Source: Candidatus Methylomirabilis lanthanidiphila
GTDB lineage: Bacteria; Methylomirabilota; Methylomirabilia; Methylomirabilales; Methylomirabilaceae
Direction: 5' to 3'
DNA: 64,000 nucleotides
NCBI GenBank assembly: GCA_902196205.1
Contig: CABIKM010000026.1
Span: forward strand, 124,001 to 188,000
The notes below the pieces were generated by a model. That model had not been told where the DNA came from, searched no databases, and worked only from the letters and a program-made list of their open reading frames with translations. Positions 56,513 to 62,787 of the stretch are shown here, one piece after another (position 1 is the stretch's first letter; every line of letters begins with the position of its first letter). The position numbers were made by a program, and so were the translations under genes.

Positions 56513-57268
56513 ATGATCGCAGATCGAATGCAGTTGTTGGTACCAGACGCGAGGCGGGACTCCGTGTCGACGAACCGTCCACGGGCGCTGGTCGCATGGA
56601 GTAGCGGGAAGGACTCGGCTTGGGCGCTCCAGGTCCTGCGGCAGGCGGGTGAGGTGGAGGTGGTGGGGCTGCTCACTACCTTCAATGAGGCGTTCGACCG
56701 CGTCGCCATGCACGCCGTGCGGCGCGGGCTGGTCGAGGCGCAGGCACGGGCCGCCGGTCTCCCGCTCGTCAATGTGCCGCTTCCCTGGCCGTGCTCCAAT
56801 GCAGCCTATGAGGAGGCGATGGGCCGGGCCCTGGCCGAGGTCCGCACGCAGCTTCAGGTTACGCATGTTGCCTTTGGCGATCTCTTCCTCGAGGACGTCC
56901 GGCAGTATCGTGAGAGCCGGATGCGGGGCACTGGACTCACGCCGCTGTTTCCACTGTGGGGCCGGCCAACACGAACCCTCGCCCGCGAGATGGTGAGCGC
57001 CGGCCTCGAGGCCAGGATTACGTGCGTCGATCCAAAGAGGCTCGCCCCCTCGTATGCAGGGCGCCTATTCGATGGTAATCTATTGGATGAATTGCCTCAT
57101 GAGGTGGATCCTTGTGGCGAACGTGGCGAGTTTCACACCTTTGCCTGGGCAGGGCCGATGTTTGCCTATCCGATTCCGGTGAGTCCTGGTGAGGTGGTCA
57201 CCCGCGACGGCTTCGTCTTCGCCGACCTGCTGCCAGGCACCGACAACCACGGGGCGATCGAAGCGTAA
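56513..57268 (+). CDS. PP-loop ATPase, Dph6-like ammonia ligase family
   Basis: A 251-residue ATP-pyrophosphatase-type protein. The PP-loop AWSSGKDSAWAL (about residues 22-33) and the family segment AFGDLFLEDVRQYRE (about 120-134) followed by GLTPLFPLWGRPT (about 141-153) match the diphthine-ammonia ligase (Dph6/MJ0570) group. Bacteria lack diphthamide, so the true substrate is unknown. It starts four bases after the PfkB gene ends. Confidence 0.85.
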   Translation: MIADRMQLLVPDARRDSVSTNRPRALVAWSSGKDSAWALQVLRQAGEVEVVGLLTTFNEAFDRVAMHAVRRGLVEAQARAAGLPLVNVPLPWPCSNAAYEEAMGRALAEVRTQLQVTHVAFGDLFLEDVRQYRESRMRGTGLTPLFPLWGRPTRTLAREMVSAGLEARITCVDPKRLAPSYAGRLFDGNLLDELPHEVDPCGERGEFHTFAWAGPMFAYPIPVSPGEVVTRDGFVFADLLPGTDNHGAIEA

Positions 57269-57364
57269 TCCGCTGACCACGCATCTCACCATACGGCCCA
57301 TTCTGTGGACTTCGCATCGACCCTCCCCGTCCTGTCCTTCATTGGCTGCTTGACAATTGCATCG

Positions 57365-57403
57365 TGAATGGATATCATTCACGATGTGAATGATATCCAT
57401 TCA
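57365..57403. promoter_or_regulatory. Perfect 17-bp inverted repeat over the start of the DUF4143 gene
   Basis: TGAATGGATATCATTCA (57365-57381) and its exact complement TGAATGATATCCATTCA (57387-57403) are separated by CGATG. Each arm is itself an imperfect palindrome (TGAAT...ATTCA). The start codon ATG at 57368 lies in the left arm, so bound protein or mRNA folding would block translation initiation or transcription. Confidence 0.8.
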
Positions 57404-58660
57404 GAACGTGAGTTGCAATATCGGCCGCGCTGGATCGCTCCCGCAGTCCAAGCCGCGGTCTCGGATCATCCGGTAGTCGTCCTGTCCGGCGCCAGACAGG
57501 TCGGCAAAAGCACCTTTTTGCAGCATGAAGCGCCGTTCTCCGGGTGGCGCTATATCACTCTCGATGATCTCGACGTGCTGCGCCAAGCCAGGAATGATCC
57601 CTCCCCCCTTTGGGCCGGGGTAGAGCAGGTGGTGTTAGACGAGGTGCAGAGGGTGCCGGAACTGCTCTCCGCTGTCAAGGTGGCCGTCGATCAACGGCGA
57701 AGGAAGGTTCGTTTCATCCTTTCAGGCTCAGCCAATCTCCTCCTGATGCGGCAGGTGAGTGAAAGCCTGGCGGGTCGCGCCTTATATTTTTCCATGCTCC
57801 CGATGGCTCTCGGAGAGATGCACGGGAGATCGGCGCCAGATTTGCTCCTCAACCTTTTACAGGGGAAGATGCCGACTGAGGGGCGGACCGAACGTCCGTC
57901 CGGAGAGCTGTCGGCACTCATGCTGCGCGGATGCATGCCGCCGCTACTGGCCTTATCCCAGCCTCAGATGTGGATCCGTTGGTGGGAGGGCTACGTGATG
58001 ACGTATCTGGAGCGGGACTTGCGCCGGTTGTCGCAGATCGAAGCGTTGTCTGATTTCCGCCGGCTGATGCAAGTCCTTGCCCTGCGGAGCGGTCAGGTAC
58101 TCAATCAGACTGAAGTCGCTCGAGATATCGGAATGAGTCAGCCTACCGTACACCGGTATATTAACCTGCTTGAAACCACCAGCCTTCTGGAGCGACTGCC
58201 CGCATTCGCCCGCAATCGTACGAAGCGGATCATGAAGTCTCCGAAGATCTACTGGATCGACCCCGGGTTGGTCGCGTATCTTTCAGGCCATCACGAGGCC
58301 GAAGCCCTGTATGCCTCCAGAGAGGCGGGGGCCATGTTTGAGACCTTGGTCTTCCTGCATCTGCGCGCACTCACGCAATTGCTGGTGCCCAGGCCGCACC
58401 TGTACTATTGGCGGACGGTAACCGGGAAGGAGACCGATTTTGTCATCGAGCAGGGGCGGAGGCTGATAGCGGTAGAGGTCAAGCTGGGTACGTCCCCGCG
58501 CTATGCCGACGCAGCGGGGCTGCGGGTATTTTTGGACGAATATCCGGAGACGGCAGCAGGCATCCTGATTCATTCGGGCGACAAGGTGCAATATCTGCAT
58601 GAGAAGATCGTTGCCGTTCCGTGGCACCTTCTCGCCGGCGAGGGGACGAGTGGTCAATAA
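57368..58660 (+). CDS. AAA_14/DUF4143 ATPase
   Basis: A 430-residue ATPase: Walker A LSGARQVGKSTFL (about residues 38-50), Walker B VVLDEVQRVPELL (about 86-98), a winged-helix segment LNQTEVARDIGMSQPTVHRY (about 246-265) and the C-terminal DUF4143 nuclease-like fold (YYWRTVTGKETDFVIEQGRRLIAVEVK split over about 348-374, with D and E-x-K residues). Such proteins occur in mobile and defence regions; the role is unknown. It sits alone, and the start lies inside a perfect 17-bp inverted repeat that could be its own operator. Confidence 0.85.
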   Translation: MDIIHDVNDIHSERELQYRPRWIAPAVQAAVSDHPVVVLSGARQVGKSTFLQHEAPFSGWRYITLDDLDVLRQARNDPSPLWAGVEQVVLDEVQRVPELLSAVKVAVDQRRRKVRFILSGSANLLLMRQVSESLAGRALYFSMLPMALGEMHGRSAPDLLLNLLQGKMPTEGRTERPSGELSALMLRGCMPPLLALSQPQMWIRWWEGYVMTYLERDLRRLSQIEALSDFRRLMQVLALRSGQVLNQTEVARDIGMSQPTVHRYINLLETTSLLERLPAFARNRTKRIMKSPKIYWIDPGLVAYLSGHHEAEALYASREAGAMFETLVFLHLRALTQLLVPRPHLYYWRTVTGKETDFVIEQGRRLIAVEVKLGTSPRYADAAGLRVFLDEYPETAAGILIHSGDKVQYLHEKIVAVPWHLLAGEGTSGQ

Positions 58661-58745
58661 TCCGAGTACCCCGCATTGTGCCATATGTCCCGTTCTGAGG
58701 ACTTGACCTTGACCCGTCCCATCACGGTGCGGTAAAAGGTAAGGT

Positions 58746-60362: not shown

Positions 60363-60418
60363 GCCCTGAGCGAATGAAGACAACGATGTGCCAACCACCT
60401 CACTGCAAAGGAGAAACG

Positions 60419-60832
60419 ATGCTGGTAAAACGCTATATGCAGACCAAGGTCGTCACGGTTGGGCCTGATGAGCAGGCCAACGCGGCGCTGTACATGATGA
60501 AGAAGAAGACTATTCGACATCTCGTTGTGACCGACAACGGGAAGCTGCTCGGAATCGTCACCGATCGGGACTTTCGACTGATGAGGCCCTCGCCCGCCAC
60601 CAGCCTGTCCATTTATGAGATTCATTACTTGCTGGATAAGGTGACCGTAAAAGAGATCATGACCAAGAAGGTGATCACCGTGACGCCGGAGACTCGGATC
60701 GCAGACGCGGCGCACCTGCTCCTCAATCGGAGGATTGGAGCGCTGCCGGTGGTAAAAGGTGGGAAGGTCGTCGGCATTATCACCGAGACGGACATGATCC
60801 GGGCTCTCATCAATCTGGAGGAGGCCCAGTAA
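60419..60832 (+). CDS. Tandem CBS-domain protein
   Basis: A 137-residue protein of two CBS modules (residues about 7-58 and 75-130), with TKVVTVGPDEQANAALYMM, LLGIVTDRDFR and GIITETDMIRALINLEE. CBS pairs bind adenosyl ligands and regulate partner proteins; the partner here is unknown. AAAGGAGAAACG precedes the ATG at 60419. The last 23 codons are repeated, diverged, at 62304-62372 beyond a toxin-antitoxin island. Confidence 0.92.
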   Translation: MLVKRYMQTKVVTVGPDEQANAALYMMKKKTIRHLVVTDNGKLLGIVTDRDFRLMRPSPATSLSIYEIHYLLDKVTVKEIMTKKVITVTPETRIADAAHLLLNRRIGALPVVKGGKVVGIITETDMIRALINLEEAQ

Positions 60833-60883: not shown

Positions 60884-61204
60884 TTACTTGGTCGTACCCT
60901 TACTGCGTGTTACAAGAACAGCAGGACGAAGCAAGCGTTCGCCTCGCATGACATGCAGCACATAGACGCGTGAGCCTTCTTCCCGGTAGAAGATTCGGCA
61001 TGGTGGCTCAACGATCTGTCGGTAGCGCCACCCCTTGAGCTCCTGTGGCTTAGAACCGCTCTTGGGATGATCAGCAAGCTGACCCACGTGCCGAAATACG
61101 TTCTGGACTAATATCTTGGCCGCTTCCGGATTGTCCAAGGCGATGTAGTCGGCGATGGCATCCAGGTCGCTCAGCGCAGGCTCGGTCCAAATTACTTCAG
61201 CCAT
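60884..61204 (-). CDS. ParE/RelE-type toxin
   Basis: A 106-residue RelE/ParE superfamily toxin: VIWTEPALSDLDAIADYIA (about residues 4-22), PKSGSKPQELKGWRYRQIVE (about 57-76) and CRIFYREEGSRVYVLHVMRG (about 79-98). ParE-like members poison gyrase; RelE-like cut mRNA; the sequence alone cannot tell which. Overlaps its antitoxin gene by 13 bases and is transcribed leftwards, antisense to the CBS gene. Confidence 0.9.
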   Translation of the reverse strand: MAEVIWTEPALSDLDAIADYIALDNPEAAKILVQNVFRHVGQLADHPKSGSKPQELKGWRYRQIVEPPCRIFYREEGSRVYVLHVMRGERLLRPAVLVTRSKGTTK

Positions 61205-61449
61205 CGAGTCATGCGCTTTTTGGCTTGTGCATGAGTGAGCGTACGCCCTTCCTCAATAGCTTTCTCCCCACGCGCGATTCCTTCGAGCAGGCTCATCCGA
61301 TGCTGCAAGGCCTCGTAGGTGTCAACGTCTACCAGGTAGGCACTTGGTACACCGTGCTGCGTAATGAGGATAGGCTCCTTGTTCCGTTCCAGCTCGGAGA
61401 GCAGCTCTGTGGCTTGGCGCTTCAGTGTTGTGACGAGTTCGGTTCGCAT
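61192..61449 (-). CDS. Phd/YefM-type antitoxin
   Basis: An 85-residue Phd/YefM antitoxin: VTTLKRQATELLSELERNKEPILITQHG (split, about 6-33) followed by PSAYLVDVDTYEAL (about 35-48). It binds and silences the ParE/RelE-like toxin and represses its operon. The toxin gene overlaps its 3' end. A symmetrical operator-like site overlaps its promoter. Confidence 0.92.
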   Translation of the reverse strand: MRTELVTTLKRQATELLSELERNKEPILITQHGVPSAYLVDVDTYEALQHRMSLLEGIARGEKAIEEGRTLTHAQAKKRMTRWLK

Positions 61450-61748: not shown

Positions 61749-61955
61749 TCAGGATGCTTTTCCGGCCACTTCAATAAAGGAGAACTCCTTGAGACCTGCG
61801 CTCGCCTTGGCGTGCTCGATGGTCATGCTGACGAGATTGCCCGTGGCATCAAGATCCACGTAGATGTTCTCGCTGATCTCCCTTGTTTCGTTTACCGGAT
61901 TCTCGGTGAACTCGATCAGGGCCGTATCGGTGTCGGCGAAATATTTTACTTTCAT
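61749..61955 (-). CDS. DUF2283 protein
   Basis: A 68-residue DUF2283 protein (MKVKYFADTDTALIEF, then ISENIYVDLDATGNLVSMTIEHA), a small beta-rich family frequently encoded next to DUF4258 proteins in toxin-antitoxin-like pairs, where it is presumed to be the antitoxin. It overlaps the upstream DUF4258 gene by four bases. Confidence 0.88.
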   Translation of the reverse strand: MKVKYFADTDTALIEFTENPVNETREISENIYVDLDATGNLVSMTIEHAKASAGLKEFSFIEVAGKAS

Positions 61956-62194
61956 TGTCCCTTCTCCGTGTATCCTCTGTCGAAGAACGCGTTGTGGACC
62001 GTTTCACCGTCCTCCAGTACGATCACTCGAAGATACCGTCCGACGGTCTTGATGAATACCCGTTTCTCGATTCTCCCGTCGGACTGAATCCTCGTTTCTA
62101 TTGCGTGATCAATCGCTTCCGCGATCCATTCGTTTCGAATGATAGTACGGTCGGGTCGCATCCGCACATGGTCGAAATATCTCGTGGTTTTCAT
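61952..62194 (-). CDS. DUF4258-type protein, possible toxin partner
   Basis: An 80-residue protein (MKTTRYFDHVRMRPDRTII, WIAEAIDHAIETRIQSDGRI, LRVIVLEDGETVHNAFFDRGY) of the DUF4258-like group, RelE-like in size and composition. Together with DUF2283 it forms a putative toxin-antitoxin pair with ATGA overlap, leftward. It lies 110 bp from the second CBS 3' copy. Confidence 0.75.
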   Translation of the reverse strand: MKTTRYFDHVRMRPDRTIIRNEWIAEAIDHAIETRIQSDGRIEKRVFIKTVGRYLRVIVLEDGETVHNAFFDRGYTEKGQ

Positions 62195-62303
62195 TCAGCC
62201 TTTATCTCATTGTTCGCTGAACGTGCTGCATAACCGGGCGCCGGCGCGCGAAGCGTCACGGGAATTCGTAAGCGCAGCTTGCAACGGTCCGATTGACCGA
62301 GAA

Positions 62304-62372
62304 AAGGTGGTCGGCATTATCACCGAGACGGACATGATCCGCGCCTTGATCGATCTGGAGGAGGCCCGGTAA
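62304..62372 (+). pseudogene. Second, diverged copy of the CBS gene 3' end
   Basis: The last 22 codons and stop of the CBS gene (60764-60832) are repeated as KVVGIITETDMIRALIDLEEAR. About 8 of 69 bases differ, mostly at codon third positions, and the stop is kept. It lies just after a 1.4-kb toxin-antitoxin island. Upstream of the duplicated part the reading frame continues without homology. Confidence 0.92.
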
Positions 62373-62460: not shown

Positions 62461-62787
62461 TTAGGATCGGATATCGATCCCGATCCAGAAACACACGCCA
62501 GCTACTACAGCCTGTAGCTGCTCGGGCGAGAGTATGCCCAGCGGACGCATGAGCCTGACCGTGGGCACGGTAACAATGCCCTGCGCGTCGAAGGCGCCTG
62601 AGCGCAGAAAGGGGACGGGGACAGCAATCTCATAGCCTGTGCCTCTGAGGCTCGTTGTGTGGGGGACCACGGTGATCAAGGCACGATCTTCCTCAGCGTG
62701 AGGCACGCCAAGAACGAGGCAGGGACGGATCTTCGCAGCCAATCCGAGGTCAACTAGCCAGACCTCGCCCCGGCAAGGAGGTCTCAC
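62461..62787 (-). CDS. MazF/PemK-type toxin
   Basis: A 108-residue PemK/MazF endoribonuclease: RGEVWLVDLGLAAKIRPCLVLG (split, about residues 6-27), then VPHTTSLRGTGYEIAVPV (about 41-58) and LSPEQLQAVVAGVCFWIGI (about 86-104). It cleaves mRNA at short sequences. Overlaps its antitoxin gene by four bases. Confidence 0.92.
   Translation of the reverse strand: MRPPCRGEVWLVDLGLAAKIRPCLVLGVPHAEEDRALITVVPHTTSLRGTGYEIAVPVPFLRSGAFDAQGIVTVPTVRLMRPLGILSPEQLQAVVAGVCFWIGIDIRS

Follow-up and report, generated by a model that had tools for sequence, protein, structure and literature searches.

A solitary DUF4143/AAA_14 gene of 'Candidatus Methylomirabilis lanthanidiphila' probably has a two-site operator of its own, serving this gene alone and overlying a leaderless promoter, at which the encoded protein would repress itself through an internal winged helix. 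The gene lies in a stretch of 64,000 nucleotides that was analyzed as a whole (hereafter the window). An original prediction, made from the letters of the window, had suggested that the protein could bind a palindrome at the start of its gene, and this idea of autoregulation is supported by the conservation of the palindromic dyads, by their private occurrence and by their co-variation with the winged helix.

The palindrome is an exact 39-bp inverted repeat at 57365-57403, with two 18-nt arms, TGAATGGATATCATTCAC (57365-57382) and GTGAATGATATCCATTCA (57386-57403), placed 3 nt apart; the perfect 17-mers 5 nt apart that had been noted originally are contained in these arms. It is the sole 100% complementary repeat in the window with arms of at least 14 nt lying no more than 60 nt apart. 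A chance origin was rejected, as about 4e-5 repeats with exact 18-nt arms and gaps of up to 20 nt are expected per window (0.002 per genome). Each arm holds one TGAATG-N5-CATTCA dyad, and the centre-to-centre distance of 22 bp bears out the two stacked operator-like sites proposed earlier. Dyad 1 (TGAATG-GATAT-CATTCA, 57365-57381) covers the -10 box and is the dyad most commonly retained in orthologues of four phyla, while dyad 2 (TGAATG-ATATC-CATTCA, 57387-57403) covers the predicted first codons and is retained in the closest orthologue, that of genome G006, and in a Chlamydiae MAG. Around site 1 there is also an extended dyad, CATCGTGAATG-GATAT-CATTCACGATG (57360-57386), whose 11-nt arms (57360-57370 and 57376-57386) overlap the large repeat and had escaped the earlier description; none of these symmetric features is assigned to a strand. 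A minus-strand open reading frame ending inside the repeat (57080-57400) is mechanical and unsupported, and was discarded.

Underneath the repeat lies a sigma70-type promoter sequence, TTGACA-17-TATCAT, which agrees with the consensus at 11 of 12 positions (0.2 sites per region in shuffled sequences); promoters in this analysis are consensus matches. The -35 hexamer (TTGACA, 6/6, 57350-57355, plus strand) is followed by a 17-nt spacer, a spacing retained in orthologues, and the -10 hexamer (TATCAT, 57373-57378, plus strand) falls within dyad 1; every orthologue of the same operator class (class A, see below) has TATCAT or TACTAT there. The position of the promoter predicts a transcription start at about 57385/57386, at an in-frame GTG (57386-57388, plus strand) located 7 nt past the -10 box, where G006 and the Chlamydiae MAG have ATG. 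Judging from this promoter-to-start spacing, the GTG is likely the real start codon and the mRNA leaderless, the gene then running from 57386 to 58660 on the plus strand and encoding 424 amino acids. The mechanical reading frame (57368-58660) begins instead at an ATG at 57368, which is an unlikely start codon because it lies between the -35 and -10 boxes, upstream of the predicted transcription start, and is probably the start of that mechanical frame only; mechanical start codons of DUF4143 genes can be wrong. The view that the repeat straddles the start codon has to be revised accordingly, as the ATG falls within the promoter and the likely start is the GTG. No Shine-Dalgarno sequence was seen for either codon.

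The dyad recurs at orthologous loci, and the original prediction thereby survives the refuting condition it had set. Orthologues of four phyla (44-85% identity), including one on the Thermus plasmid pTT27, retain the dyad, the promoter spacing and the start codon at +1. The closest, in G006 (a single contig of 2,752,854 bp), encodes an 85% identical protein and retains the two dyads, with two paired changes (57371/57397 from G-C to T-A and 57382/57386 from C-G to T-A) that leave the 39-bp symmetry perfect; its promoter and start read TTGACA-17-TATCAT-7-ATG. The corresponding arrangement is TTGACC-17-TACTAT-7-ATG in the Chlamydiae MAG (L003, 60% identity), TTGCAA-17-TATCAT-7-GTG in an Acidobacteria MAG (L004) and TTGTCT-17-TATCAT-6-ATG, with TGAATGACTATCATTCA, in the Thermus pTT27 orthologue (46% identity), and loci L012, L044 and L140 likewise have a 17-nt spacer and a start 6-7 nt past the -10 box. 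The dyad or its half-sites lie over the -10 box in L004, L012, L044, L140 and pTT27 and on the first codons in L003, and several orthologues have four half-sites with gaps of alternately 3 and 5 nt. The Chlamydiae and Thermus orthologues have no ATG at the place of 57368 and their most natural start is the +1 ATG, which is also the RefSeq start of the Thermus genes; a leaderless mRNA is therefore the natural reading.

The encoded protein belongs to the Pfam families AAA_14 (E 8e-26, 91 bits) and DUF4143 (E 4e-44, 150.5 bits), both matched above cut-off, and to PDC-S01, whose PADLOC profile it matches over nearly its full length (E 2.4e-120, residues 11-417). Alignments place a Walker A motif (GARQVGKS) at residues 35-42 of 424 (57488-57511, plus strand). 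The winged-helix segment suspected originally was recovered both as a Pfam HTH_IclR match above the gathering cut-off and in an AlphaFold2 model (pLDDT 85, pTM 0.88), in which residues 221-290 (58046-58255, plus strand; pLDDT of the block about 81-93) form a canonical winged helix-turn-helix with helices at 221-233, 241-248 and 252-264 plus a wing. Its recognition helix would be at about 252-264 (QPTVHRYINLLE), and its sequence gives weak PDB matches to MarR/MntR-type regulators. Four residues invariant in both alignments, E349-x-D351...E364-V-K366 (58430-58483, plus strand), are typical of PD-(D/E)XK enzymes and point to a putative nuclease. A structure search returned the archaeal Walker ATPase 2qen as the best solved match, followed by RuvB, Apaf-1/STAND and Avs5, and also clamp loaders. 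The architecture would be that of an AAA/STAND-like ATPase with a winged helix and a PD-(D/E)XK motif, and the gene a putative defence gene.

Scanning whole genomes, we found TGAATGN5CATTCA confined to the DUF4143 gene in G000, G006, G047 and G074, and absent from the six other genomes searched. The search for further copies that the original prediction had called for yielded none beyond the two at the DUF4143 locus, and the palindrome was accordingly rejected as a repeated genomic element. Because the motif is restricted to the DUF4143 gene in the genomes scanned, it is, as far as sequence can tell, a private site of this gene and not the mark of a regulon. Seven matches to the motif occurred in viral contigs, and at none of them was the start of a DUF4143 gene seen.

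The gene stands alone on the chromosome, between a diphthamide-synthase-like gene upstream and a TPP enzyme gene downstream. Six congeners have these two genes near each other and lack an intervening DUF4143 gene; in G000 and G006 the DUF4143 gene occupies the interval. The upstream reading frame in G006 continues directly into TTGACA and ends within the operator, and the arriving unit would therefore have brought its promoter and operator along. Sequence around and after the DUF4143 stop codon (58640-58745) resembles that following the diphthamide-synthase-like gene (57260-57345), as if the target region flanked an insertion. More broadly, the region from 57 to 63 kb of the window is rich in toxin-antitoxin-type genes. 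A PhdYefM antitoxin and ParE toxin pair (60884-61449, minus strand) lies 2.2 kb past the DUF4143 gene, and a DUF2283 protein (61749-61955) and a PemK/MazF-like toxin (62461-62787) are encoded farther along the same strand. The end (EKVVGIITETDMIRALIDLEEAR) of an open reading frame at 62139-62372 (plus strand) repeats the C-terminus of a CBS-domain gene at 60374-60832, and the toxin-antitoxin genes are flanked by this partial duplication. DUF4143 genes are also present in the predicted viral contigs L160-L165, and phages or prophages may carry them; a search with the single DUF4143 protein of the window gave no close relatives in viral contigs.

We then compared the gene with its relatives, using a set of 87 DUF4143 genes, all with a Walker A motif (36 nonredundant), mainly from one phylum, which we judged to be Methylomirabilota, plus plasmids. 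The best promoter of each gene was chosen blindly before its spacing to the start codon was scored. Of the 87 genes, 55 had an in-frame start 4-9 nt past the best -10 box, compared with 1 and 4 for the other two frames; about a third of the relatives have no start at this distance from the best-scoring -10 box. In the nonredundant set, 28 of 36 genes had this spacing, vs 35 of 215 for the neighbour genes (p 5e-13 by Fisher's test), and the median promoter score was 8.6 vs 6.5. Upstream dyads better than those of shuffled sequences were likewise enriched (13 of 36 DUF4143 genes vs 12 of 212 neighbours, p 2e-6).

The operators of the DUF4143 genes collected fall into about eleven classes, which were set by eye with simple patterns and are in some cases loose; examples are GAGTAAAATTACTC, GGGTATAATATACCC, CATGAAAATC...GATTTTCATG, CGTCATTTGGCAT...ATGACG and direct repeats of ATCAGCCGA. 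Paralogues within G006 carry different classes (A, C, D and G), and orthologues across phyla share one. For pairs of proteins that are 40-50% identical elsewhere, the winged helices are 67% identical when the operator class is the same vs 44% when it differs, and within class A, that of the window gene, the winged helix is 76% identical vs 52% for the remaining protein. Such co-variation is the trace expected of a protein that reads its own operator, with shared descent contributing; shared descent alone could produce it, but the winged helix exceeds the remaining protein in this respect, which speaks against that view. In eight DUF4143 genes of Proteobacterial plasmids, dyads or repeats abut the start codon in a similar layout. 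Taken over the 86 relatives, the comparison suggests that the DUF4143 ATPase-nuclease family generally represses itself via its own DNA-binding domain. The clearest multi-site operator we saw is at about 3380-3460 of L101, where a DUF4143 gene is preceded by a tandem series of three GGGTA...TACCC dyads, spaced about 22 bp apart. On a Rhizobium beringeri plasmid (L174) the gene occurs as two reading frames, one for an AAA ATPase and one for a DUF4143 protein, and is probably a broken copy.

Applied to the window gene, autorepression would proceed as follows. RNA would begin at about 57385/57386, giving a leaderless mRNA that starts with GTG and a protein beginning MNDIHSE, with dyad 1 on the -10 box and dyad 2 just past the transcription start. 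The winged helix of the DUF4143 protein would bind these dyads, probably with two dimers sitting on the same face of the DNA helix (22 bp being two turns), and the bound protein would block RNA polymerase and so hold down its own level. On entry into a new host, expression would be unrepressed at first and would then settle, and repression could be lifted by the ATP state or by foreign DNA. Winged helices in other AAA proteins can serve non-regulatory contacts, which counts against the protein acting as an autorepressor.

Three other explanations were weighed against autorepression. That a host regulator, Fur-like or other, binds the dyads in place of the DUF4143 protein is unlikely, although ordinary regulators are what the winged helix most resembles in sequence, and a AATGATTATCATT core in some orthologues (L064, L140) is similar to that of a Fur box. 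In the genomes scanned the motif occurs only at the DUF4143 gene. Operators differ between paralogues within one genome, and a given operator tracks the orthologue through four phyla. The Fur-like core itself (up to one mismatch) occurs at two places in the genome, neither of them at the DUF4143 locus, and membership of a Fur regulon was rejected. The repeats might also be initiator or ORB/iteron-like sites for loading an AAA protein in replication, recombination or element maintenance, any autoregulation being a by-product. The combination of an AAA domain with a winged helix, the iteron-like direct repeats of some relatives (class D) and the structural matches to RuvB, clamp loaders and 2qen would suit such a role; we nevertheless consider it very unlikely, given that the dyads lie on the promoter and keep register with the start codon, and that the gene is solitary and chromosomal, between the diphthamide-synthase-like and TPP enzyme genes.

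The least probable explanation, to which we give very little credence, acts at the RNA level: in read-through transcripts the 39-nt repeat would fold and hide the ATG at 57368, much as the original prediction had a hairpin in the mRNA masking the start codon. Read-through RNA over the repeat does fold strongly (-42.7 kcal/mol, z -5.1), and the two changes in G006 are compensatory. However, the predicted transcription start lies past the 5' arm, and RNA beginning at +1 shows no more folding than its shuffled versions (z -1.4). Moreover, orthologues from Chlamydiae, Acidobacteria and Thermus have single dyads only and lack the large hairpin, and the Chlamydiae MAG and Thermus genes are without the ATG that it would hide. 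A hairpin over the start codon was accordingly rejected.

Autorepression at tandem dyads would have parallels in known mobile systems. The C proteins of restriction-modification systems are small, separate regulators that also activate. One of them, C.Csp231I, has two tandem dyads, CTAAG-n5-CTTAG, in its own promoter region and a leaderless mRNA (PMC4824078). The DUF4143 locus is similar in its two dyads with 5-nt centres at its own promoter, its predicted leaderless mRNA and its apparent nature as a mobile, self-controlled gene; it differs in that the winged helix is inside the putative effector, the ATPase-nuclease, and in that the dyad retained best covers the -10 box, a position suited to repression. 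The gene was not assigned to the C proteins, as it encodes a 424-aa ATPase between diphthamide-synthase-like and TPP enzyme genes. Type II toxin-antitoxin modules, for example that of MazE6 (PMC9477884), are comparable in being mobile and in having at their promoter an operator through which they regulate themselves; the DUF4143 unit, in contrast, is a single gene without a separate antitoxin, with putative effector and DNA-binding domain in one chain. As an ATPase fused to PD-(D/E)XK, the protein resembles PDC-S01, a phage-defence candidate reported to rank fourth among putative defence systems of prokaryotes by frequency (29,494 instances in bacteria and 9,986 in archaea), for which validation is pending (PMC12988326). 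We found no description of the regulation of PDC-S01, and nothing in the open-access literature on that of DUF4143, AAA_14, COG1373 or PF13635. A possible functional hint comes from Thermus thermophilus HB27, whose pTT27 gene TT_RS11170 has the same operator class as the window gene (46% identity) and, from gene order, is probably TT_P0211, an AAA_14/DUF4143 gene whose RNA is reported to go up 6.6-fold in Ago-positive cells that contain plasmid DNA (PMC4406477).

Tentatively, we consider it a real possibility that the whole DUF4143/PDC-S01 family consists of one-gene, self-regulating mobile units with private operators over leaderless promoters, in which one protein with a built-in winged helix would act as sensor and controller as well as effector, and repression would be lifted by invading DNA or the ATP state. 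If so, tens of thousands of bacterial and archaeal genes would be concerned. The predicted cognate operator would be the first directly testable biochemical activity for the PDC-S01 family, assays could draw on the operator classes for proteins already matched to a DNA site, and self-repression would explain how a solitary ATPase-nuclease could cross phyla without harming its new hosts.
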